Positions 6,459-34,275 of a DNA stretch of 64,000 nt are shown in pieces (the first letter of the stretch is position 1; every line of letters starts with the position of its first letter). A program made the translations under genes and the position numbers. The stretch is from Aromatoleum aromaticum EbN1. GTDB lineage: Bacteria > Pseudomonadota > Gammaproteobacteria > Burkholderiales > Rhodocyclaceae. The stretch spans positions 3,286,001 to 3,350,000 of the forward strand of contig NC_006513.1 in NCBI RefSeq assembly GCF_000025965.1, read 5' to 3'. Under the pieces are notes generated by a model that worked only from the letters and a program-made list of their open reading frames with translations, was not told the DNA's origin and did no database searches.

Positions 6459-6811
6459 AGCGCTCTCCCGAAAACCATGGCGCGCCAGCGCGGCTCACTG
6501 ATGAACCCGCAGTGCTCTCGCTGCTCGTCCTCACGGAACTTGCGGCGCAGCACTTGCAGTTCTCGTGCTCGATCTACGGCGGCGGCTTCGGCGGCGACGA
6601 GCCTTGCGAGCGTGAGCAAGTCCAGGCCGTCGCCCTCGCTGGCCTCGGCGCCAAGCTCGGCCCGGAGCATCAGTGCGGCGAGGAGCGGGTCGAGCGCGGT
6701 GCGGCGCGGCCAGCCAGGGGCGGGGACCAGGACGAGCCCATGCACTTGATCAAGTTCGACCTTGCGGCCGAGCAACAGCAGGTGCAACGCAACCTCACTT
6801 GAAATGATCAT
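6455..6811 (-). CDS. Hypothetical protein of the integrated element (118 aa)
   Basis: A leftward ORF whose ATG is preceded by AAGGAG. It overlaps the upstream small gene by four bases and the 23-codon gene downstream. The central part is Leu/Ala-rich and probably helical (LLAALMLRAELGAEAS, LVAAEAAAVDRARELQVLRRKF). I recognise no family. Its place between alpA and the primase gene suggests an element-specific regulatory or replication accessory role. Confidence 0.6.
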   Translation of the reverse strand: MIISSEVALHLLLLGRKVELDQVHGLVLVPAPGWPRRTALDPLLAALMLRAELGAEASEGDGLDLLTLARLVAAEAAAVDRARELQVLRRKFREDEQREHCGFISEPRWRAMVFGRAL

Positions 6812-7026
6812 TTGGAATTCTCCTTGGAACGGCGCCCGAGCACGAAGCCGAGCACGAAGGCGCCGCGCAGTGCAGCGTCGCCGTGCGTCACTTCGCGGGG
6901 TAGGGGCGGGATCTTCAGCCTCGCGCGACGCTCAGCCTCGGCGATCATCTGCTCCACGTCACAGCCGCGCAGGGATTCGGCGATGGTGGTGTCGCGCAGC
7001 ATGGCGGCGATTTGGGCGGGGCTCAT
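6808..7026 (-). CDS. Hypothetical small protein (72 aa) of the integrated element
   Basis: It starts at the ATG overlapping the alpA-like gene stop (ATGA), so it is very likely translated together with it. The product begins MSPAQIAAMLRDTTIAESLR and ends in a basic tail (RRSKENSK) after a hydrophobic stretch (GAFVLGFVLG). No family is recognised. A longer reading from an earlier start would overlap alpA extensively and is not favoured. Confidence 0.6.
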   Translation of the reverse strand: MSPAQIAAMLRDTTIAESLRGCDVEQMIAEAERRARLKIPPLPREVTHGDAALRGAFVLGFVLGRRSKENSK

Positions 7027-7232
7027 TGCTGCACCTCCACACGTCCGGCGATCCACGCACGAACGGCGTTGAGGTCCCAGCGCGAGCACGCTGAGGAGAG
7101 GCGAATTTGACGAGGAAAGGTGTCGTCCTCGCGCATCCAGCGCCAGACGGTTTTCTCGTGGATGGTGAGGATTGCGGCAACGTCTTTGACGGTACCGAGT
7201 TCAATTGCGTGTGTAGTGGCCGATGAGGACAT
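7023..7232 (-). CDS. AlpA-like helix-turn-helix regulator / excisionase
   Basis: A 69-aa DNA-binding protein of the AlpA/MerR-excisionase type. VKDVAAILTIHEKTVWRWMRE is a winged-helix/HTH recognition segment, followed by FPRQIRLSS and a Trp-containing C terminus (WDLNAVRAWIAGR), the classic AlpA layout. AlpA proteins activate integrase expression or excision and satellite gene expression. The start (ATG 7232) is preceded by GGGAGAA; an in-frame start ten codons earlier is possible. It is divergent in function from, but transcribed in the same direction as, the integrase gene. Confidence 0.85.
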   Translation of the reverse strand: MSSSATTHAIELGTVKDVAAILTIHEKTVWRWMREDDTFPRQIRLSSACSRWDLNAVRAWIAGRVEVQQ

Positions 7233-23202: not shown

Positions 23203-25112
<1,910 letters not shown>

Positions 25113-25152: not shown

Positions 25153-25253
25153 ACGATGCGCGAATCGGGAACGATGCATGCAAACGTCTCGAGGAAGCCA
25201 CCCCAGTGACCGCTTTCGCGCGTGAGCCCGCGCAGGAAGACCCAGGTCTTCAT
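25153..25253 (-). pseudogene. Alpha/beta hydrolase, 5' fragment (34 codons)
   Basis: It encodes MKTWVFLRGLTRESGHWGGF and continues to DSRIV, where the IS21 element begins; the reading resumes at VALDLPGTG on the far side. The HGxx-type oxyanion segment is RGLTRESGHW. Its ATG lies just after the stop of the M14-type peptidase gene, suggesting the two were co-transcribed. Confidence 0.8.
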
Positions 25254-25257
25254 CCGC

Positions 25258-26274
25258 TCACCGGTACCAGCGGTCGAGCGCGCGCGCCGCATGCACCGCC
25301 CGCGCATTCCCCCGCGGGATCCATGCAGCGAAGCTCGCTGCCGCGCGCGACAGAAAGTCGAGCAGCGACAGGTGCCGGCGCAGCACGCGCTGCTGCCGGT
25401 GTGCGAGCCGCGGATTGAAGATCCCGTGCTTCGAGAACATCTGCCGCGGGTTCTTCTTGACCCACAGCCACGCGCCCATCTCGAGCGTCAGCGGCAGAAA
25501 GATGCGGCCCGGCGCACGGGCCGCGCGCAGATGGAGGTAATCCCACAGATCGCCGTGCGCGAGGTACTGGAGGCTTTGCGGCTCGAAGATGTAGGGGTGG
25601 TGCGGGTGCGTCCGCCGGAATATCTCCTCGAGCGCATGGACCTCGGCGAGGTGGGAGAACGGCTCGCGCGTGTGCGCGTACGGAAACCAGATACGGTCGC
25701 TGAGGCCGAAACCCGAGTGGCAGTCGAGCGCGATGCTGAATTCCCGCGCGAGCAGCTCAGCCGCGACGGTTTTGCACAGCGCCGCGCTCTCGACCTCCAT
25801 CGCGTCGCCGAGATGGCCGCGGAACCACGGCAGGTGTGCGCTGATCCGGTGCCCGCCGATCAGTGGGGGCACGCGCTCGTGCGCCTCGAGCGGCGCGTTG
25901 CGCATCAGGTCGACCCCGTTCGGGTTCGCGCGCGTCGCGCGCCACATGCCGCCGGGATTGACGAGCGGCATGAACAGGAGCCGCACCGATTCGAGCTGGC
26001 GATGAAGGGTCGCGTCCCACCGCAGGCGCATCACGAGGTGCCTCAGGTACGCGACGACGACGTCCGTGCCGATGCGCTCGAGCCCATGCACACCGCCGAC
26101 GAATCCGACCGCGGGCGCGTTGGTGTCGGGGTTGCCGAGCGCGATCGCGTAGATCGGGAATCTCGCTGCCGCACCCGCCTCGACCTCACGGACGACCCGC
26201 ACGTCAAGAACCCCGTGTCCCGCGTCGATGACGCGTTCGAGCTCGACGAGCTCCGGAAGCGCGGCGTCGGGCAT
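25258..26274 (-). CDS. M14-family zinc carboxypeptidase-like / succinylglutamate desuccinylase-type hydrolase
   Basis: 338 aa. Zn ligands H and E are seen in GFVGGVHGLERIG, the N-P-x-G segment in FMPLVNPGGMW and NPNGVDLMRN, and the third ligand in IALDCHSGFGLSDR, with a later Glu in LTLEMGAWLW. These match M14 peptidases and the related deacylases of the AstE/aspartoacylase group. No signal peptide, so it is probably cytosolic. Substrate unknown. The open frame extends far upstream, but that is a shadow of the acyltransferase gene. It precedes the split alpha/beta hydrolase in the same orientation. Confidence 0.8.
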   Translation of the reverse strand: MPDAALPELVELERVIDAGHGVLDVRVVREVEAGAAARFPIYAIALGNPDTNAPAVGFVGGVHGLERIGTDVVVAYLRHLVMRLRWDATLHRQLESVRLLFMPLVNPGGMWRATRANPNGVDLMRNAPLEAHERVPPLIGGHRISAHLPWFRGHLGDAMEVESAALCKTVAAELLAREFSIALDCHSGFGLSDRIWFPYAHTREPFSHLAEVHALEEIFRRTHPHHPYIFEPQSLQYLAHGDLWDYLHLRAARAPGRIFLPLTLEMGAWLWVKKNPRQMFSKHGIFNPRLAHRQQRVLRRHLSLLDFLSRAAASFAAWIPRGNARAVHAARALDRWYR

Positions 26275-26426
26275 CGGGCGGCTCCGCGTCACGTCCGCGC
26301 AGCGGCCCCTCGCGAGCGCGGCAGCGGAAACGGCTGCGCGGGGCGGCGGCGCGGATCGGGTCGTTGAAACGAGAATGCCATGTTGACTTGATAAGGTGCG
26401 GCCAAGCGTTCGAACCGGAAACGAAG

Positions 26427-26585
26427 ATGAACCGGAAATCCTTTCGGCGTATCCGCCTGCTGCCGGCGCTCGCGCTCGGCCGCGCGATCCTTTGCGGAGT
26501 GCTCGAGTTCGTTGCGCTGCAGCGCGCTCGACCGGGTCGAGCCGGCACGCGACGGGCTGCGGGAATCGACAGGGCGCAGTCCTGA
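26427..26585 (+). CDS. Possible small hypothetical protein (52 aa)
   Basis: A short rightward ORF beginning MNRKSFRRIRLLPALALGRA, strongly basic with one hydrophobic segment (LALGRAILCGVLEFVALQ). ATG follows GGAAACGAAG, a plausible ribosome site. It is the only candidate between two leftward genes. There is no family evidence. Confidence 0.3.
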   Translation: MNRKSFRRIRLLPALALGRAILCGVLEFVALQRARPGRAGTRRAAGIDRAQS

Positions 26586-26650
26586 AATCAAAGACGACCG
26601 CACGCGGCTTTGCAACGGCAACGACGGAAGGTCCGGCGGCGAGCGAGATC

Positions 26651-26682
26651 GTGAGCCGGCCCTGCCGGCCCTGCCGGCTCAC
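26651..26682. terminator. Hairpin at the acyltransferase stop codon
   Basis: GTGAGCCGGC and GCCGGCTCAC form a perfect 10-bp stem with a 12-base loop overlapping the stop of the leftward gene. No T-run, so it may be an mRNA-end stabiliser rather than a true terminator. Confidence 0.45.
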
Positions 26683-27458
26683 GCGGCGTGGCGGATCGCA
26701 TCCGCTTCGCCGACGAACAGCGCGTCGGCGATGACCGTGCGCGCACGCCGCGCAACGGCCTTGCGATCCGCTCCCGCGGTCGTGAGCGGCGCCCCGCTGG
26801 CGAGCTTCAGCGTGAGGTCGGATGTACGCACGATCGACTGGAGGCTCTGCCAGAGCGTCGTGTCGCCGGCGTATGCGGCCGCCGCGCTGCGCGACCCTCG
26901 CGCGTCCTCGTAGCGCAGCGCGAGCGGCACGACCGGGCGCCGGGCGGCGACCGCGCCCTGCAGCAGCGCGGCGTGAAAATGCAGAAGTCGCGAGCCGTCG
27001 GTCGTCGTGCCTTCTGGGAATACCGCGACGCACGCGCCGGCGGCGATTGCCGCGGTGATCGCCTGCTCGGTTCGTCGCGCGTCTGCGGCGCTGCCGCGGC
27101 GCAGGAACAGCGTGTCGTGGCGCGCCGCGAGCCAGCCAACCAGCGGCCAGGTGCGCACCTCGGCTTTCGCGACGAAGGCAGCGGGCGCAAGGGCGTTGAT
27201 CGCGAAAACATCGACCCATGACACGTGGTTCGCGACGATCAGGCTGTGTGGCGGTGGCGCCGGGCCGTCGAGCTCGACCCGGATCCCGAGCACGCGCAGC
27301 AGGCGCTGCGACCAGATCTGCCGGACGCGACGCCGTGCGGGTGCGGGGAGCGCCGGGACGACGAGCAGCGTCGCCGCAGCGCCCAGCAGCAGATGGTGCG
27401 CGAGCCGCAACAGCCGCCAACAGCGCCGCGCGGCGGACACCTCGGCTGCGACCGTCAC
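26679..27458 (-). CDS. olsA: 1-acyl-glycerol-3-phosphate / lyso-ornithine lipid O-acyltransferase
   Basis: A PlsC-type acyltransferase of 259 aa. An N-terminal hydrophobic segment precedes the catalytic NHVSWVDVF (H-x4-D) and the acceptor-binding VFPEGTTTDG. It starts with GTG overlapping the stop of the GNAT gene (GTGA), so the pair is translationally coupled. Pairing with an OlsB-like N-acyltransferase indicates OlsA: O-acylation of lyso-ornithine lipid to ornithine lipid, a phosphorus-free membrane lipid. A general phosphatidic-acid role cannot be excluded. Confidence 0.82.
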   Translation of the reverse strand: MTVAAEVSAARRCWRLLRLAHHLLLGAAATLLVVPALPAPARRRVRQIWSQRLLRVLGIRVELDGPAPPPHSLIVANHVSWVDVFAINALAPAAFVAKAEVRTWPLVGWLAARHDTLFLRRGSAADARRTEQAITAAIAAGACVAVFPEGTTTDGSRLLHFHAALLQGAVAARRPVVPLALRYEDARGSRSAAAAYAGDTTLWQSLQSIVRTSDLTLKLASGAPLTTAGADRKAVARRARTVIADALFVGEADAIRHAA

Positions 27459-28219
27459 CTGCCGTCGCCGCCGAAATGCCTGAGGTACTTCTGGTCGAGC
27501 CGGTTCATCGGCAACAGGATCGGCAGATCCGCAGTGTTGAAGTCGGGGTCCCACGCGGGCGCGCCGCAGATCCACGCGCCCGCGCGCAGATAGCCCTTGA
27601 TCAGCGGCGGGGGCTCGGCGGCGACGTCCCCGCGCAGCGCGTCGAGCGGCAGCGCGCAGCGCGGGGTCACGCGGTATTCGGGTGGGCTTTCATGCTTCTC
27701 GCGCAGGCGCGCGTAGAGGCTAGCGGCGGTGTGGCCGCCGTCGGCGATGCTGATCGACGCGCAGCCGAGCAGGTAATCGTGGCCGTTGTCGCGCATGTAG
27801 CGCGCAAGCGCGGACCACAGCAGCGCGATCGCTGCGCCGCTGCGGTAGTCGGGATCCACGCACGAGCGGCCGATCTCGACGATGCGCGGGCGCAGATGCT
27901 GCAGCCGCGTCAGGTCGAATTCGGTCTCGGAATAATAGCTGCCGACGCGCCGCGCGGCGTGCGGCGACAGGATGCGGTACGTGCCGACGATCCGGCCGGC
28001 GACGTCGTCGCGCACGACGAGGTGCTCGCAAAACGGGTCGTAGAGGTCATGATCGACGCCCGGGCTCCGCGTCGGCAGCCGCGCGCCCATTTCTTCGGCG
28101 AACACGCGGTAGCGCAGCTTCTTCGCTTCGTGGATCTCGCTCGGGCAGGTGGCGATGCCGGCGTGCAGCGCGCGGCAGCCGGCGCGCTGCAGCTGTGTGG
28201 TCTGTAGCATGCGGTTCAA
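27455..28219 (-). CDS. olsB: L-ornithine N-alpha-acyltransferase (OlsB family)
   Basis: 254 aa of the OlsB/hemolysin-like acyltransferase group. Conserved parts are EIHEAKKLRYRVFAEEMGA, DPFCEHLVVRD (here DLYDPFCEHL), IVGTYRILSP, EIGRSCVDPDYR and the C-terminal KGYLRAGAWICG. The enzyme transfers a 3-hydroxyacyl group from ACP to ornithine, the first step of ornithine lipid synthesis. It is the first gene of the leftward olsB-olsA unit. A weak PHO-box-like arrangement (GAGTCAT-4-CTGAAAC) can be found upstream, but the match is poor. Confidence 0.85.
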   Translation of the reverse strand: MNRMLQTTQLQRAGCRALHAGIATCPSEIHEAKKLRYRVFAEEMGARLPTRSPGVDHDLYDPFCEHLVVRDDVAGRIVGTYRILSPHAARRVGSYYSETEFDLTRLQHLRPRIVEIGRSCVDPDYRSGAAIALLWSALARYMRDNGHDYLLGCASISIADGGHTAASLYARLREKHESPPEYRVTPRCALPLDALRGDVAAEPPPLIKGYLRAGAWICGAPAWDPDFNTADLPILLPMNRLDQKYLRHFGGDGR

Positions 28220-28576
28220 TCCTCGGGTTGGCTCGAGCCAATCTAAGTGGCGCTTGTTTCAGGTCGATGACTCGGAAATGTCCGCCGTGTTACGCCCGCC
28301 GCCGCTCGCCCGACCGTTTCCGCCGGTCCCGGCGGTGTTATAAATCTGTCCACTCGGATTCATACACTTCGTGATCCGACCGGAGGATTACGATGCCCGT
28401 GAATATTCTGCTCGGTTGAGCAGGCCGCGGTACTGCCGGTGCCGAGCGTTCGGGTCGTAGCCGCGCAAAATGCGCCGCTGGCGCGCGCGGGTCGCGGGCG
28501 GCAGCGCGTCGAGGATTGCGTCGCGCTCGCACAGGATCTGCGCATCCGCTCGTTGACGAACACGAAGCGGAGCGGC
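28220..28576. other. Gap with a decayed leftward gene end and an 8-codon ORF
   Basis: On the minus strand about 50 residues ending ARQRRILRGYDPNARHRQYR and NRAEYSRAS, with stop at 28388-28390, look like a genuine protein C terminus, but no start or N-terminal part exists. On the plus strand ATG at 28393 follows GGAGG and encodes only eight residues. Both are probably remnants. Confidence 0.35.
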
Positions 28577-28616
28577 CCGTCATCGAACTGTCACCGCGGG
28601 GTCACGGAGCTTTCAT
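28577..28616 (+). promoter_or_regulatory. PHO box: four 11-bp-spaced PhoB half-sites upstream of plcP
   Basis: CCGTCAT-cgaa-CTGTCAC-cgcg-GGGTCAC-ggag-CTTTCAT: four consecutive 7-mers resembling the PhoB half-site CTGTCAT/C, separated by 4 bp each, ending 22 bases before the plcP ATG. The 7+4 periodicity is the established PHO-box architecture. This predicts induction by PhoB under phosphate limitation. Confidence 0.8.
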
Positions 28617-28638
28617 CGTCGGTGGGTAACGTGGCTGC

Positions 28639-29433
28639 ATGCCAACGGTCAAATCGGTCTTTCTTTCCGACATCCATCTCGGCACGCCGGCGTGCCAGGC
28701 GGAACGGGTCGTCGAATTCCTCCGCGAGTATCCCGCCGACAACACGTTCCTGATCGGCGACATCGTCGACTTCTGGGCGATGAATCGCAGCATCTGCTGG
28801 CGCCAGTCCCACAACACGGTCGTGCAGAAGCTGTTGCGGCGCGCGCGCCACGGCGGACGCGTCGTGCTGATACCCGGAAACCACGATGAGGCGCTGCGCG
28901 ATTACTGCGGCACCGTGTTCGGGGACATCGAGGTGCTCGAAGAGGTCGTGCATGAAACCGCGGACGGCAAGCGCCACCTGCTGATCCACGGCGACCAATT
29001 TGACCAGGTGACGCGCCACCACCGCTGGGTCGCCGTGCTCGGCGACCGCGCCTATACGGTGCTCGTGCGCCTGAACGTCCTGCTGTCGTGGGTGCGCCGC
29101 AGGTTGAACCTCCCCGGCTACTGGTCGCTAGCCGGCTATGCGAAGCGCAAGGTCAAGAAGGCGCTCGATTTCATTTTCGATTTCGAGGAGTCGGCGATTC
29201 ATCACGTGCGCGAGCGCGGCCTCGACGGCGTGATCTGCGGCCACATCCACTGGGCTGCGATACGCGAGGTCGACGGCCTCAGTTACGTCAATTGCGGCGA
29301 CTGGGTTGATTCGTGCACCGCGATCGTCGAGCATCCCGACGGCCGCCTCGAGTTGATCGCGTGGGGCGCACGCGAAGCCGCGACGAACCGCACGGTGCTT
29401 GAAGCGGCGGAGGCTTCCGAATGCGCGTACTGA
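28639..29433 (+). CDS. plcP: Metallophosphoesterase, PlcP-type phospholipase C (also annotated as UDP-diacylglucosamine diphosphatase-like)
   Basis: A 264-aa calcineurin-like phosphoesterase. Metal ligands are in SDIHLG, GDIVDFW, PGNHDEAL, LIHGDQFD and VICGHIHWA. Segments typical of the PlcP branch are visible: GTPACQAE, RHHRWVAVLGDRAY, YWSLAGYAKRKVKKA and NCGDWVDSCTAIVEH. PlcP, described in Sinorhizobium meliloti and marine bacteria, cleaves phospholipids to diacylglycerol during phosphate starvation, releasing the head group phosphate. The PHO box upstream and the overlapping glycosyltransferase plus diacylglycerol kinase downstream fit that role rather than lipid A synthesis. It overlaps the next gene by 13 bases. 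Confidence 0.85.
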   Translation: MPTVKSVFLSDIHLGTPACQAERVVEFLREYPADNTFLIGDIVDFWAMNRSICWRQSHNTVVQKLLRRARHGGRVVLIPGNHDEALRDYCGTVFGDIEVLEEVVHETADGKRHLLIHGDQFDQVTRHHRWVAVLGDRAYTVLVRLNVLLSWVRRRLNLPGYWSLAGYAKRKVKKALDFIFDFEESAIHHVRERGLDGVICGHIHWAAIREVDGLSYVNCGDWVDSCTAIVEHPDGRLELIAWGAREAATNRTVLEAAEASECAY

Positions 29434-30641
29434 TGGTGTCAGACGTCTATTTTCCGCGCGTGAACGGTGTATCGACGTCGATCGAGACTTTTCGCCGCGC
29501 GCTGTCTCCGCGCGGCGTCGCGACCCGCCTCGTCGTGCCCCGATATGCGGACGAGGCCGAAGAGGAGGGGATCGTTCGCGTGGGGGGCCGCGCAGTCCCG
29601 GGCGACGGCGAAGACCGGCTGCCACGCTGGCGCGCGATGCACGCGGCGGTGCGAGAGGCCGCGCGGGATTGCGACCTGATCCACATCCAGACGCCGTTCG
29701 TCGCGCACTATGCCGGCGTCACCGCCGCACGCAGCCTCGGTCTCCCGGTCCTCGCGACGTATCACACGCTGTTCGAAGAGTATCTGCAGCACTACGTCCC
29801 GCTGCTGCCCGCGCGCTGGCTTCGGCACGGCGCGCGGGCGCTATCGCGCCGGCAGTGCAACGACCTCGACGCGGTGATCGTGCCGTCCACCGCGATGCAG
29901 CAGCGACTGCAGCAGTACGGCGTGACCGCGCCGACGCACACATTGCCGACCGGCGTGCCGTTCGAGCGCCTGGCCGCCGGTGCACCGGGCGAGTTCCGCA
30001 GGCGCTGCGGAATTCCGTCGGATCGGCCCGTCGCGCTCTACGTCGGGCGCGTCGCCCATGAAAAGAACATCGGATTCCTGCTCGATGCGATGCACCATAC
30101 GCTCGCGCGGCGCCCGGACCTGCTGCTCATGATCGCCGGCGAGGGACCGGTCGAGCGCGAGCTCCGGGATCGGGTGAGGCGCGAGGGGCTCGGCGAGTCG
30201 GTGCTGTTCGTCGGTTATCTCGAGCGCGTGAACGCGCTGCCGGCCTGTTACGCAGCGGCCGACGTCTTCGTCTTTGCGTCCCAGACCGAAACGCAGGGAC
30301 TCGTGCTGCTCGAGGCGATGGCGGCCGGCCTGCCGGTCGTTGCGTTGTCGGACATGGGCACGCACGACATCCTCGCGCCGGGGCGCGGTGCGCTTTCGCC
30401 GCCGGACGACCCGCGGCTCTTCGGCGACGCGCTCGTGGACCTCTTCGCGCGTCCGCACGAGCGTCAAAAGCTCGCAGACGACGCGCGGCGGTACGCCGCG
30501 GAGTGGTCCGACGTCGCGATGGCGGGGAGACTCGCGACGCTCTACGGCACGCTGTGCCGGGGGCCGGCGGCCTGCACCGATGTGGCGCGTCGTTCGTCGG
30601 GCATGACCCGTCCGTTCCTGCGCTCGTTCGACGAACGGTGA
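29421..30641 (+). CDS. GT4-family glycosyltransferase, probable diacylglycerol glycosyltransferase
   Basis: 406 aa with the GT-B layout. The N-terminal acceptor domain begins MRVLMVSDVYFPRVNGVSTS, and the C-terminal nucleotide-sugar domain has YVGRVAHEKNIGFLLDA, FVGYLERVNALPACYAAADV and the E-x7-E motif in FASQTETQGLVLLEAMAAGLP. Immediately downstream of plcP with overlap. In plcP-agt operons such enzymes glycosylate diacylglycerol to replacement glycolipids, the most likely role here; acceptor and sugar are not proven by sequence. Confidence 0.82.
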   Translation: MRVLMVSDVYFPRVNGVSTSIETFRRALSPRGVATRLVVPRYADEAEEEGIVRVGGRAVPGDGEDRLPRWRAMHAAVREAARDCDLIHIQTPFVAHYAGVTAARSLGLPVLATYHTLFEEYLQHYVPLLPARWLRHGARALSRRQCNDLDAVIVPSTAMQQRLQQYGVTAPTHTLPTGVPFERLAAGAPGEFRRRCGIPSDRPVALYVGRVAHEKNIGFLLDAMHHTLARRPDLLLMIAGEGPVERELRDRVRREGLGESVLFVGYLERVNALPACYAAADVFVFASQTETQGLVLLEAMAAGLPVVALSDMGTHDILAPGRGALSPPDDPRLFGDALVDLFARPHERQKLADDARRYAAEWSDVAMAGRLATLYGTLCRGPAACTDVARRSSGMTRPFLRSFDER

Positions 30642-31060
30642 CGCACGAGCGCATGCCGCCGCGGCCGGCCGATAGCGCGGTCGAGCGCGAGTCGCCGTTC
30701 AAGGGCAAGACCGGCCTGCGCGGGATCTGGAACGCGCTCCGCTATTCGCTCGCTGGGCTCAAGGCCGCCTATGTCCACGAAGACGCGTTCCGGCAGGAAG
30801 TCCGGCTCGCGGCGCTGCTCGTGCCGATCGCGCTGATCATGCCGGTCGCGGCCGCCGAGCGCGCGCTGATGGTCGCGAGCGTGCTGCTCGTGCTCGTCGT
30901 CGAGCTGCTCAACTCGGCGATCGAAGCGGTCGTCGATCGCGTCGGTCTCGAGAGCCACCGCCTCGCAAAGCGCGCGAAGGACATCGGCAGTGCGGCGGTG
31001 CTGGTTTCGCTGGTCCTGGGCGCGTTCGTCTGGGGCAGCATTTTGCTGGACAGGATATGA
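30638..31060 (+). CDS. dgkA: Diacylglycerol kinase (DgkA family)
   Basis: A small integral membrane kinase of about 140 aa with three helices. Conserved motifs are AYVHEDAFRQEVRLA and the signature VVELLNSAIEAVVDRVG, followed by KRAKDIGSAAV. It phosphorylates diacylglycerol to phosphatidic acid, so it would recycle the product of PlcP. GTG 30638 overlaps the preceding stop; an ATG five codons later is an alternative. The stop overlaps the next glycosyltransferase (ATGA). Confidence 0.9.
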   Translation: MTHERMPPRPADSAVERESPFKGKTGLRGIWNALRYSLAGLKAAYVHEDAFRQEVRLAALLVPIALIMPVAAAERALMVASVLLVLVVELLNSAIEAVVDRVGLESHRLAKRAKDIGSAAVLVSLVLGAFVWGSILLDRI

Positions 31061-32319
31061 GCTGCCTCGATATTGCCGTCGTTACCGAAACCTTTCCGCC
31101 CGAGGTCAACGGCGTCGCGATGACGCTTGGGCGGCTCGTGCACGGCATGCGCGAGCGTGGCCATCGCGTTAGCATAGTGCGGCCCCGCCAACGCCGGGAC
31201 GACCGAGGGAGCGAGTACGACTTGACGATCGCAGGCGTGCCGATGCCCGGCTATGCCGGCCTGCGCTTCGGCCTGCCGTCGGGCGGCGCACTCGCGCGGC
31301 AGTGGCGCAGGCACCGCCCCGATCTCGTCCACGTCGTGACCGAAGGGCCGCTCGGATGGTCCGCCGTGAGCACGGCGCGCCGCCTCGGCATTCCGGTGAC
31401 GTCCGGTTTTCACACGAACTTCGACCATTACAGCGTGCATTACGGCCTCGGCTGGCTGCGCCCGGCGGTGTCGGCCTACTTGCGGGCACTTCACCGCAGG
31501 ACGCGCGCGACACTCGTCCCGACGACGGCGCTCGCAGCCGATCTCGCCGGCGAGGGGGTGCCGGGCGTCCGCGTCGTGGGTCGTGGCGTCGATACCCGTC
31601 TGTTCAACCCGCGTCGCCGCAGCACGGATCTGCGCGCGGAATGGGGCGCCGCGCCCGAGGATTTCGTCTGTCTCTATGTCGGGCGTCTCGCCCCCGAGAA
31701 GAATCTTGTCCTCGCCGAGCGCGCCTTCGCGGCGATTCGCGGGCAACATTCAAACGCGCGGATGATCTGGATCGGCGACGGCCCGTCCGCTTCGCGCCTG
31801 AAACTTGAGCGTCCCGACCACCACTTCGCGGGCGTGCGGCTGCACGAAGCGCTCGCGGAGCACTACGCGAGCGCCGATCTGTTTCTGTTTCCGAGTCTCA
31901 CCGAGACGTACGGCAACGTCGTCGCCGAGGCGATGGCGAGCGGCACGCCGGTCGTCGCGTATCGCAGCGCGGCGGCCGCCGAACTGGTCGAGGACGGCGA
32001 AAACGGCGCGCTGGCGCCGCCAGGGGACGACGCGGGTTTCGTCGCCGCGGCGCTGTCGACGCTCGCCGACCGGACGCGGCTCGGTCGATTGTCACGCGCG
32101 GCCCGTGTGAGCATGTTGCCAGCGCAGCTGGGATGGTGTCGTCCTCGCGTTCGAGCGGGTCGCGCGGGACGTGATTCGAGACGCTTGTCCCTGCTCGGAA
32201 AGACGCCGCGATTGCGAAGATGCACGCTCCTGGGCCGATCCCTGACCGCGCCGGCGTCGAGTCGGGGGTGCGGACGAAGTTCGGCCGCCCCCTTGGACGT
32301 TCTGGCGCTGCCGGCGTGA
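31057..32319 (+). CDS. GT4-family glycosyltransferase, probable lipid glycosyltransferase with a frameshifted C terminus
   Basis: GT-B enzyme beginning MSCLDIAVVTETFPPEVNGV, with FHTNFDHYSVHY, VGRLAPEKNLVLAERA and LFPSLTETYGNVVAEAMASG as nucleotide-sugar motifs. ATG overlaps the dgkA stop. The last 60 or so residues are arginine-rich and unlike the family. In the neighbouring frame, SWDGVVLAFERVARDVIRDA is the expected GT4 C terminus and ends at 32245. A single extra base between about 32110 and 32126 would explain this, so the gene is either mutated at its end or carries a sequencing error. The core catalytic domain is intact. Confidence 0.8.
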   Translation: MSCLDIAVVTETFPPEVNGVAMTLGRLVHGMRERGHRVSIVRPRQRRDDRGSEYDLTIAGVPMPGYAGLRFGLPSGGALARQWRRHRPDLVHVVTEGPLGWSAVSTARRLGIPVTSGFHTNFDHYSVHYGLGWLRPAVSAYLRALHRRTRATLVPTTALAADLAGEGVPGVRVVGRGVDTRLFNPRRRSTDLRAEWGAAPEDFVCLYVGRLAPEKNLVLAERAFAAIRGQHSNARMIWIGDGPSASRLKLERPDHHFAGVRLHEALAEHYASADLFLFPSLTETYGNVVAEAMASGTPVVAYRSAAAAELVEDGENGALAPPGDDAGFVAAALSTLADRTRLGRLSRAARVSMLPAQLGWCRPRVRAGRAGRDSRRLSLLGKTPRLRRCTLLGRSLTAPASSRGCGRSSAAPLDVLALPA

Positions 32320-32433: not shown

Positions 32434-34275
32434 ATGAGGCAATCCGAACAGCCCGCCCTCCGCCCGACCCGGAATCCGAACGGTCCTACGAGTCATCTTG
32501 ACGAATTGCACGCGCTAGTCGACGAGCGGGCGCTTGAGTTCGCGTTCCAGCCGATTGCCGACGTCAGCCACGCGTCTGTCTACGGATATGAGGCGTTGAT
32601 GCGGGGCCCAGCAGGTTCTCGACTGCGCAGTCCGGACGAGATCCTGCGCGCAGCGCGCGCCGCGGGGCGGCTCGCCGAACTCGAACGCATCGCGTGCCTC
32701 ACGGCAATCGACGCATTCGCGCGCCAGCGCCTGAAGGGGAAACTTTTTCTGAACCTTTCCGCGCCGCTGATCGAACACTTCGCGCGCGACAATGGCGCGG
32801 AGCTCGTGGGTCGTGCCGAGGCCGCAGGCATCGCGCCCGTTCGGCTCGTACTGGAGCTCACCGAACACGAGCGGGTCGAGGACGTCGACGGGCTGCACGC
32901 GGCAATGACGACGCTCTGCGCGGCGGGGATCACGCTGGCGCTCGACGATTTCGGAGATGGCCGATCGAGTCTGCGTTTGTGGGTGCAACTCAGACCGCAA
33001 ATCGTCAAGCTCGACAAGTTCTTCGTCCAGGGCCTCGATTCGGACATCCGGAAAGTCGAGGTGATTCGAGGCGTGTTGCGTCTGGCCGAGGTGTTGGGTA
33101 CGCCCCTCGTCGCCGAAGGCATCGAAGATCCAGTACAGCTCGCGGTGCTGCGCGACCTCGGGTGTCATTACGCGCAGGGTTACTGTCTCGGGCGGCCGGC
33201 GCAGTTCCCCGAACCCGGTCTGCTTCCGGCCGCGCTGGCAGTGCTGCGTTCGGACAAGGTCTCAGTCCTCCCCGCGTCGTCGCCACAGCCGAGATTCGAC
33301 CACTCGGTCGACAGGCTCCGCGTAGCAGCGCCGAGTGTCGTGCCGCAGACAGCCAGCTCCGAGCTGATGCGCCTCTTCATCGCGAATCCGGACCTGCATG
33401 CGATCGGCGTCGTCGATCGCGACCGGCCGGTGGGGCTCGTGAACCGCCGCGATTTCATCGAGGCGTATGCGCAGCCGTACCACCGCGAGCTCTACGGCAA
33501 GCGTCCGGTAGCGGAGTTCATGAACGCGGACCCGTTGTGCGCGGAGCGCTCGGCGCCGCTCCAGTCGCTGGTCAACGTGCTGGCTGGCGAGGATCAGCGC
33601 TACCTACAGGACGGCTTCATCGTCACTGACGAGGGTCGGTATGCCGGGGTCGCGACAGGCGAGAGTCTCGTACGCGCCGTCACCGAACTGCGAATCGAGG
33701 CCGCCCGCCACGCGAACCCCCTGACGTTGCTGCCCGGCAACATTCCGGTGACCGAGCACATCGGCCGGCTGCTCGACGCGCGCGTGCCGTTTGCGGCCTG
33801 CTATTTCGATCTCAACAACTTCAAGCCGTACAACGACCTCTATGGCTACTGGCGGGGCGACGAGATGATCAAGCTTGCCGCGAAGCTCGTGCTCGCGCAC
33901 AGCGATCGAAAACATGATTTCGTCGGCCACGTCGGCGGGGACGACTTCGTCGTGCTGTTCCAGAGTGAAGACTGGGCGGCGCGCTGCCGAGCGATCGTCC
34001 ACGAGTTCAATCGCGATGCGCACGCGCTGTTCGACACCCGTGAGCTGGAGTCGGGCGGCTTCAACAGCGAGGACCGGCGCGGTTTCGCGGCGTTCTTTCC
34101 GCTGACGACAATTGCCGTCGGCCAGGTCCACGTGGTTTCCGGGCAGTTCCGCGACGCCGAGGACGTCGCGTCCGCCGCTGCTGAGGCGAAGAAGATAGCG
34201 AAGCGCTCACGAACAGGCATCCACCTCGCGCCCACGGCGCAGGTGATACCGAGGCTGCATGTTGTAAGGAGCTGA
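32434..34275 (+). CDS. c-di-GMP signalling protein with EAL, CBS-like and GGDEF domains
   Basis: 613 aa. Residues about 20-265 form an EAL phosphodiesterase domain with YEALMRG, LFLNLSA, LVLELTEHERV, LDDFGDGRSSL, VKLDKFFVQ and VAEGIE all retained, suggesting activity. A CBS-pair region follows (about 295-425; HAIGVVDRDRPVGLVNRRDF). A C-terminal GGDEF domain (about 435-600) has CYFDLNNFKPYND but GGDDF in place of GG(D/E)EF, replacing the catalytic Glu with Asp, so the cyclase may be weak or regulatory. No membrane segment or signal peptide, therefore cytosolic. It stands apart from its neighbours. Confidence 0.9.
   Translation: MRQSEQPALRPTRNPNGPTSHLDELHALVDERALEFAFQPIADVSHASVYGYEALMRGPAGSRLRSPDEILRAARAAGRLAELERIACLTAIDAFARQRLKGKLFLNLSAPLIEHFARDNGAELVGRAEAAGIAPVRLVLELTEHERVEDVDGLHAAMTTLCAAGITLALDDFGDGRSSLRLWVQLRPQIVKLDKFFVQGLDSDIRKVEVIRGVLRLAEVLGTPLVAEGIEDPVQLAVLRDLGCHYAQGYCLGRPAQFPEPGLLPAALAVLRSDKVSVLPASSPQPRFDHSVDRLRVAAPSVVPQTASSELMRLFIANPDLHAIGVVDRDRPVGLVNRRDFIEAYAQPYHRELYGKRPVAEFMNADPLCAERSAPLQSLVNVLAGEDQRYLQDGFIVTDEGRYAGVATGESLVRAVTELRIEAARHANPLTLLPGNIPVTEHIGRLLDARVPFAACYFDLNNFKPYNDLYGYWRGDEMIKLAAKLVLAHSDRKHDFVGHVGGDDFVVLFQSEDWAARCRAIVHEFNRDAHALFDTRELESGGFNSEDRRGFAAFFPLTTIAVGQVHVVSGQFRDAEDVASAAAEAKKIAKRSRTGIHLAPTAQVIPRLHVVRS

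Follow-up and report, generated by a model that had tools for sequence, protein, structure and literature searches.

In the window, that is, the whole 64,000-nt stretch of Aromatoleum aromaticum EbN1 DNA analyzed here, an operon with the order plcP-GT4-dgkA-GT4 is preceded by two PHO boxes that probably serve as a PhoB operator in place of a -35 element, with a predicted leaderless start at plcP and a second, divergent array in front of olsBA. We hold this reading as a whole with good confidence, and within it the control of plcP by PhoB through the double PHO box is very likely on the strength of sequence comparison. The array, the geometry of the -10 element, their conservation, the divergent array, the gene order and the presence of PhoB and PhoR were all read directly from the DNA. 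The features concerned are as follows.

26679..27575, minus strand: olsA-like O-acyltransferase (NF052553, 132.4 bits, cut-off 300); the start of the ORF overlaps olsB and is tentative
27455..28210, minus strand: olsB-like ornithine N-acyltransferase (NF052555, 166.4 bits, cut-off 320)
28240..28245, minus strand: -10 element of olsB, TAGATT, 10 nt past the olsB array
28256..28295, minus strand: putative second PHO operator (olsBA), GCGTAAC acgg CGGACAT ttcc GAGTCAT cgac CTGAAAC, from scores and conservation
28577..28616, plus strand: plcP PHO operator, four half-sites in 11-bp register, equal to two PHO boxes, from direct reading and matrix scores
28627..28632, plus strand: -10 element of plcP, TAACGT, 10 nt past the last half-site and 6 nt before the ATG
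28638..28640, plus strand: predicted transcription start of plcP, the A of the ATG at 28639 +/-1 nt, from the -10 geometry
28639..29433, plus strand: plcP-like metallophosphoesterase (Metallophos), a divergent LpxH-like paralogue
29421..30641, plus strand: GT4 glycosyltransferase; best NCBIfam matches GlcN_PG_synth and MGlcDAG synthase, below cut-offs
30653..31060, plus strand: dgkA-like diacylglycerol kinase (PF01219); start at GTG 30638 or ATG 30653
31057..32319, plus strand: second GT4 glycosyltransferase, its ATG overlapping the dgkA stop

The half-sites upstream of plcP are CCGTCAT (28577-28583), CTGTCAC (28588-28594), GGGTCAC (28599-28605) and CTTTCAT (28610-28616), separated by the 4-nt spacers CGAA, CGCG and GGAG, and the array is followed by a gap of 22 nt (28617-28638) to the plcP ATG. 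The description in the earlier note, four 7-mers with 4-bp spacers in perfect 11-bp register ending 22 bases before plcP, was exact on re-reading; the divergent olsBA array and the leaderless layout had been overlooked. These are CTGTCAT-like 7-nt direct repeats with an 11-bp period, two or more of which define a PHO box operator (PMC4415409). Unit 3 differs from CTGTCAC in its first two bases and unit 4 from CTGTCAT in its third. Using assumed, E. coli-like half-site weights, the array scored 32.3 as compared with a maximum of 22.8 across 100 Mb of simulated sequence, and the local dinucleotide-shuffle p was 1/301. When the -10 element was included and the matrix was built from 52 relatives, window excluded, the score was 49.6 bits versus a maximum of 18.6 in 100 Mb of simulated sequence; the runner-up in the 64 kb with this matrix was the olsB array at 11.7. 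Under all four matrices (the E. coli-like one and three learned from relatives), the plcP score was unreached in 100 Mb of random positions; the comparison with random high-GC sequence, which the earlier note had named as a possible refutation, therefore did not refute its proposal. A lone pair carries no such weight: CTGTCAYN4CTGTCAY with at most two mismatches was matched 32 times in the genome versus 30 times for the backwards control. Lone PHO box pairs are thus no marker of PHO sites in this genome, and the case is carried by the four-unit register and its conservation.

To examine conservation, plcP loci were taken from the 80 of 118 family genomes with a match (the 118 include the organism's own genome) and from the 80 best among 425 named loci; some species are represented in both sets, and the named set is largely Azonexus, Dechloromonas, Zoogloea and kin (GTDB). 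With the window, this gave 161 loci, of which nine were dropped (no ATG within 12 nt, or less than 150 nt upstream); removal of nine duplicates from the 152 usable loci left 143 distinct upstream regions, window included. An array at p<=0.05 was observed in 120 of the 143, where p comes from whichever of two array lengths gave the better value, the half-site weights are the assumed E. coli-like ones and the relatives are not independent. The distance from the best four-unit array to the ATG was 22 nt in 70 upstreams, 23 in 20 and 24 in 6, altogether 96 of the 143 (window included). The half-site consensus of the relatives is C/G-C/T-G-T-C/A-A-C/T, and TAAC forms are thus common. No array was present in the remaining 23 upstreams. 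Eighteen of these have an ORF of 150 codons or more, running in the same direction, whose end is no more than 16 nt from the plcP start, the nearest matched upstream gene being the second GT4; plcP is hence not the first gene of the operon there, and these array-less exceptions fit. The other five loci include four in which, by eye, a two-unit version is kept.

The genome contains the regulatory pair, with PhoB and PhoR scoring 360 and 400 bits, both above the family cut-offs, and the DNA-reading helix of PhoB is conserved, as VEDRTVDVHVRRLR is identical to the recognition helix of E. coli PhoB (1gxp) except for one I to V exchange. The organism's own promoters of the regulon, inspected by eye, have the same design: phoB has TTGTCAC aaaa AATTCAA, 10 nt and TACACT, and pstS has CTGTCAA attt CTGACAC, 10 nt and GATGAT, with CTGTAAC actc CTGAAAT, 10 nt and TACACT further upstream. 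A matrix search for a four-unit array at pstS and phoB found none, only pairs or weak arrays, the best pair near pstS scoring 15.3 and the best triple near phoB 10.8 versus 34.0 for the four units of plcP. Taken with the matrix score, the 120 of 143 arrayed upstreams and the 10-nt spacing to the -10 element, the presence of PhoB and PhoR bears out the earlier proposal of a PHO operator before plcP-GT4-dgkA-GT4.

Since the -10 element lies 10 nt past the array and 6 nt before the ATG, transcription is expected to start on the A of the ATG, and the mRNA would be leaderless. Among 53 non-redundant promoters, picked on array and distance alone (window included), A(-11) and T(-7) were invariant in 53/53, position -1 was C or T in every case, and the consensus at -12 to -7 was TATCGT, from which TAACGT of the window deviates. 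A NANNNT lay 9-11 nt past the array in 103 of the 120 arrays at p<=0.05, placing the array at the -35 position with the spacing to the -10 that is typical of PHO promoters. The leaderless geometry was found in 93 of the 143 upstreams, with 6 nt (70), 7 nt (18) or 8 nt (5) between the -10 and the ATG and a 10-nt spacer in all (the background rate of NANNNT being 4.1%); the remainder comprised 10 with a longer leader, 17 with an array and no NANNNT at the expected place, and the 23 without an array. The olsB promoters provided a yardstick, in that nucleotide 7 after the -10 is a purine in 33 of 42 (A in 25, G in 8); in plcP promoters the corresponding nucleotide is the A of the ATG in 70 cases out of 93, which points to it as the start. 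A search by anti-SD energy for Shine-Dalgarno (SD) enrichment upstream of plcP across the 93 loci found none, the mean being -3.83 versus -4.23 for shuffled sequence and -6.43 for olsB (last 22 of at most 44 nt retained past the -10). In the window itself GGTGGG pairs with the anti-SD at -6.1 kcal/mol, similar to its own olsB (-5.9), which makes the SD status of plcP ambiguous here; the motif sits 12 nt from the ATG, upstream of the predicted transcription start. Leaderless genes of bacteria have been recognized in the literature by a TANNNT some 12 nt ahead of the start codon (PMC3160421), and plcP has this signal together with the lack of SD enrichment, subject to the ambiguous energy in the window.

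The layout was also followed in other families, for which 40 of the 57 matched genomes were used and p was the best of three array lengths, uncorrected. An array (p<=0.05) was present in 30 of these 40 plcP promoters and absent from 10. The 30 consisted of 20 with a -10 and a longer leader (more than 9 nt between the -10 and the start codon), three with leaderless geometry, one of them with an uncertain start, and seven without NANNNT. As the arrays of other families are mostly leadered, the PHO operator appears to predate the leaderless arrangement.

That TCA words fell into this row by accident in GC-rich DNA and serve no function is an idea to which we give practically no credence. Box pairs do occur at chance frequency in this genome, and TCAY repeated four times at 11-bp spacing, which has a single match in the 4,727,255 bases (3 contigs), namely the plcP array, likewise has one match in its backwards control. 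Nevertheless, no position in 100 Mb of simulated sequence reached the score of the array, on which ground a chance origin was rejected, and position and register are kept in the 96 upstreams counted above. Binding by a different regulator of the OmpR/PhoB type could be argued from the 57 matches to TIGR02154 in the genome, 56 of them below the cut-off. It is very improbable, given that only one PhoB passes this family cut-off, the half-sites match the PHO consensus, similar pairs with equal spacing occur by eye at phoB and pstS, and the gene content is consistent with phosphate saving.

The rival explanation with most claim to attention retains PHO control and supposes a leadered mRNA, with the main start further upstream (from another promoter or by read-through) and ribosomes binding weakly at GGTGGG (28621-28626). 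The anti-SD energy of the window, comparable to that of its own olsB, speaks for it, as do the leaders that are frequent in distant plcP promoters (20 of 40 with array and -10). Against it, a start directed by the conserved -10 would fall at the ATG or within about 1-2 nt of it, and the 93 loci are without SD enrichment. Furthermore, an in-frame stop in the window ends 9 nt before the plcP ATG, so that no plcP start codon is possible further upstream, and the conserved NANNNT-N6-ATG has no other apparent reason. We therefore regard a leadered mRNA as rather unlikely and prefer the leaderless start.

The second operator, on the minus strand, scored 23.4 with the pooled plcP-relative matrix, second to plcP in the 64 kb and unreached in 100 Mb. 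The E. coli-like weights did not make it stand out (14.7, as against 15.4 at another place in the window, and reached at 121 positions per 100 Mb); the case for it hence rests on its place, its -10 element and its conservation. An array at p<=0.05 was found in 45 of 47 distinct olsB upstreams (29 olsB loci and those within the plcP loci, window included), with NANNNT exactly 10 nt on in 42 of those 45. The predicted olsB start is near 28233, about 23 nt ahead of the ATG at 28210 (minus strand), and the leader so defined contains GAGGA (28224-28220); leaders with SD-like motifs are the rule in olsB promoters. Only 9 of 160 relatives' loci, the flanks of which are short, have olsB upstream of plcP on the opposite strand, and the twin layout is thus not general. 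In six frames nothing else was recognized in 28380-28600.

The four genes of the operon run in the same direction and overlap or nearly so. The true LpxH is encoded at another place in the genome and scored 270.8 bits with TIGR01854 (cut-off 190.35); the plcP product, at 40.3 bits, is a calcineurin-like phosphoesterase distinct from LpxH. The name PlcP is given by homology and context, and its activity is predicted. Adjoining it are two GT4 genes, candidate lipid glycosyltransferases below the equivalog cut-offs. The exact plcP-GT4a-dgkA-GT4b order occurs in 46 of 160 relatives' loci, the rest having partial or other orders in flanks that are often short. The olsB and olsA products fall below the equivalog cut-offs of the families that match them best, and they were accordingly named OlsB-like and OlsA-like by homology and pairing. 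An EAL-CBS-GGDEF protein (32434-34275, plus strand) is encoded directly after the plcP operon, and some relatives also have EAL matches in the vicinity of plcP. Near the lipid genes there is a transposase-like ORF (23979-25109, minus strand) with an rve integrase core, IS21-like by eye only.

A quick tree joined the plcP of the window to that of Zoogloea ramigera (SH-aLRT 92), surrounded by sequences from Azonexus/Dechloromonas and others, its highest identity within the tree set being 79%. A constraint grouping it with its three genus-mates was rejected (p-AU 0.00014); in those three, plcP directly follows a GT4 gene and has no array. The genome holds a broken second olsB at C1:1970670-1971026 (L304, G000:C1:1964000-1978000, about 6671-7027); the stretch around it is 93.5-99.9% identical to a genus-mate in which the copy is intact, and the break is inside olsB. 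Positions 25165-28190 of the window (an M14-peptidase gene and olsA-olsB) match the second olsB locus of a genus-mate (L307) at 76-77% DNA identity, and the only plcP match of that genus-mate is elsewhere in its genome. These comparisons suggest that a foreign plcP operon arrived with its own promoter beside olsBA, the order of events being tentative. Searching the 419-bp intergenic region against the collected loci (blastn, E<=0.01) returned only the window's own overlapping copies. A stretch of 52 nt at 28362-28412 (plus strand) is 75% identical to the organism's own phoB -10 and first codons (E=0.002; blastn against one 19-kb phoB locus, other matches being short or weaker) and is possibly a phoB remnant between olsB and plcP. 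Several Azonexus/Dechloromonas loci (e.g. L152, L159, L189 and L202) have phoB about 1.4-5.2 kb upstream of plcP.

From these data we infer PhoB binding, a response to phosphate, the leaderless start and the functions of the enzymes, and the following course of events is proposed. At low phosphate PhoR would phosphorylate PhoB, dimers of which would occupy the four half-sites head-to-tail; four units may point to cooperative binding and strong control, as the earlier note had also suggested. Bound PhoB would bring sigma-70 polymerase to the TAACGT that lies exactly 10 nt past the array, and transcription of plcP would begin on or beside the A of the ATG, so that the mRNA would lack a leader and be translated without a Shine-Dalgarno step. 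PlcP would then remove phospholipid head groups to give diacylglycerol, which the GT4 enzymes would convert to glycolipid, and DgkA may send surplus diacylglycerol back to phospholipid. The oppositely directed second array would drive olsBA, the 419-bp region thereby switching on two kinds of phosphorus-free lipid. As a speculation to which we attach little weight, the plcP start codon of this betaproteobacterial group may have moved onto the transcription start while the PHO array stayed fixed, and translation of the operon, bypassing SD initiation, may proceed preferentially on intact 70S ribosomes once starvation for phosphate limits the number of ribosomes.

PHO control is already familiar for both plcP and olsB; what is new is the predicted leaderless layout. 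In the Escherichia coli pstS promoter four half-sites, forming two PHO boxes, take the place of the -35, and the gene has an ordinary leader with an SD. It shares with plcP the four half-sites in place of a -35 and differs in that plcP is predicted to be leaderless. Lipid-remodeling operons of the plcP-agt type with Pho boxes have been described in marine bacteria (PMC4796936), and Pseudomonas aeruginosa PA3219-PA3218 is of this type with a Pho box, an organism that also makes ornithine lipid at low phosphate (PMC8528852). As far as the accessible portions of these papers go, plcP adjoining a glycosyltransferase and a Pho box in the promoter are shared features; here there are four half-sites, two GT4 genes flanking dgkA, an olsBA pair that diverges from plcP under an array of its own, and a -10 so placed that transcription should begin on the ATG. 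For Burkholderia sensu lato, Pho boxes have been predicted ahead of olsB (PMC7814305). The predicted PHO operator before olsB in Betaproteobacteria is held in common, and the divergence of olsBA from plcP, the four half-sites and the fixed 10-nt spacing to the -10 set the present locus apart. The TANNNT leaderless signal, detected in 9 of 71 beta-proteobacterial genomes (PMC3160421), is shared in its position about 12 nt before the start codon; that study is a genome-wide count, whereas here one orthologous gene joins the signal with the operator of an activator. Among the papers listed, judged by title and abstract, we found no report of a divergent plcP/olsBA PHO region, which is not proof of absence, none among papers on leaderless genes and Pho boxes of such a layout, and none on plcP control in the literature of the genus on phosphate limitation or PhoB.

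At this locus a single divergent PHO control region would link two ways of making membranes without phosphorus. If confirmed, the leaderless geometry would mean that Proteobacteria have a conserved leaderless gene that depends on an activator, and the leadered plcP of distant relatives and the leaderless form found here would make a before-and-after pair for asking why a starvation gene drops its leader.
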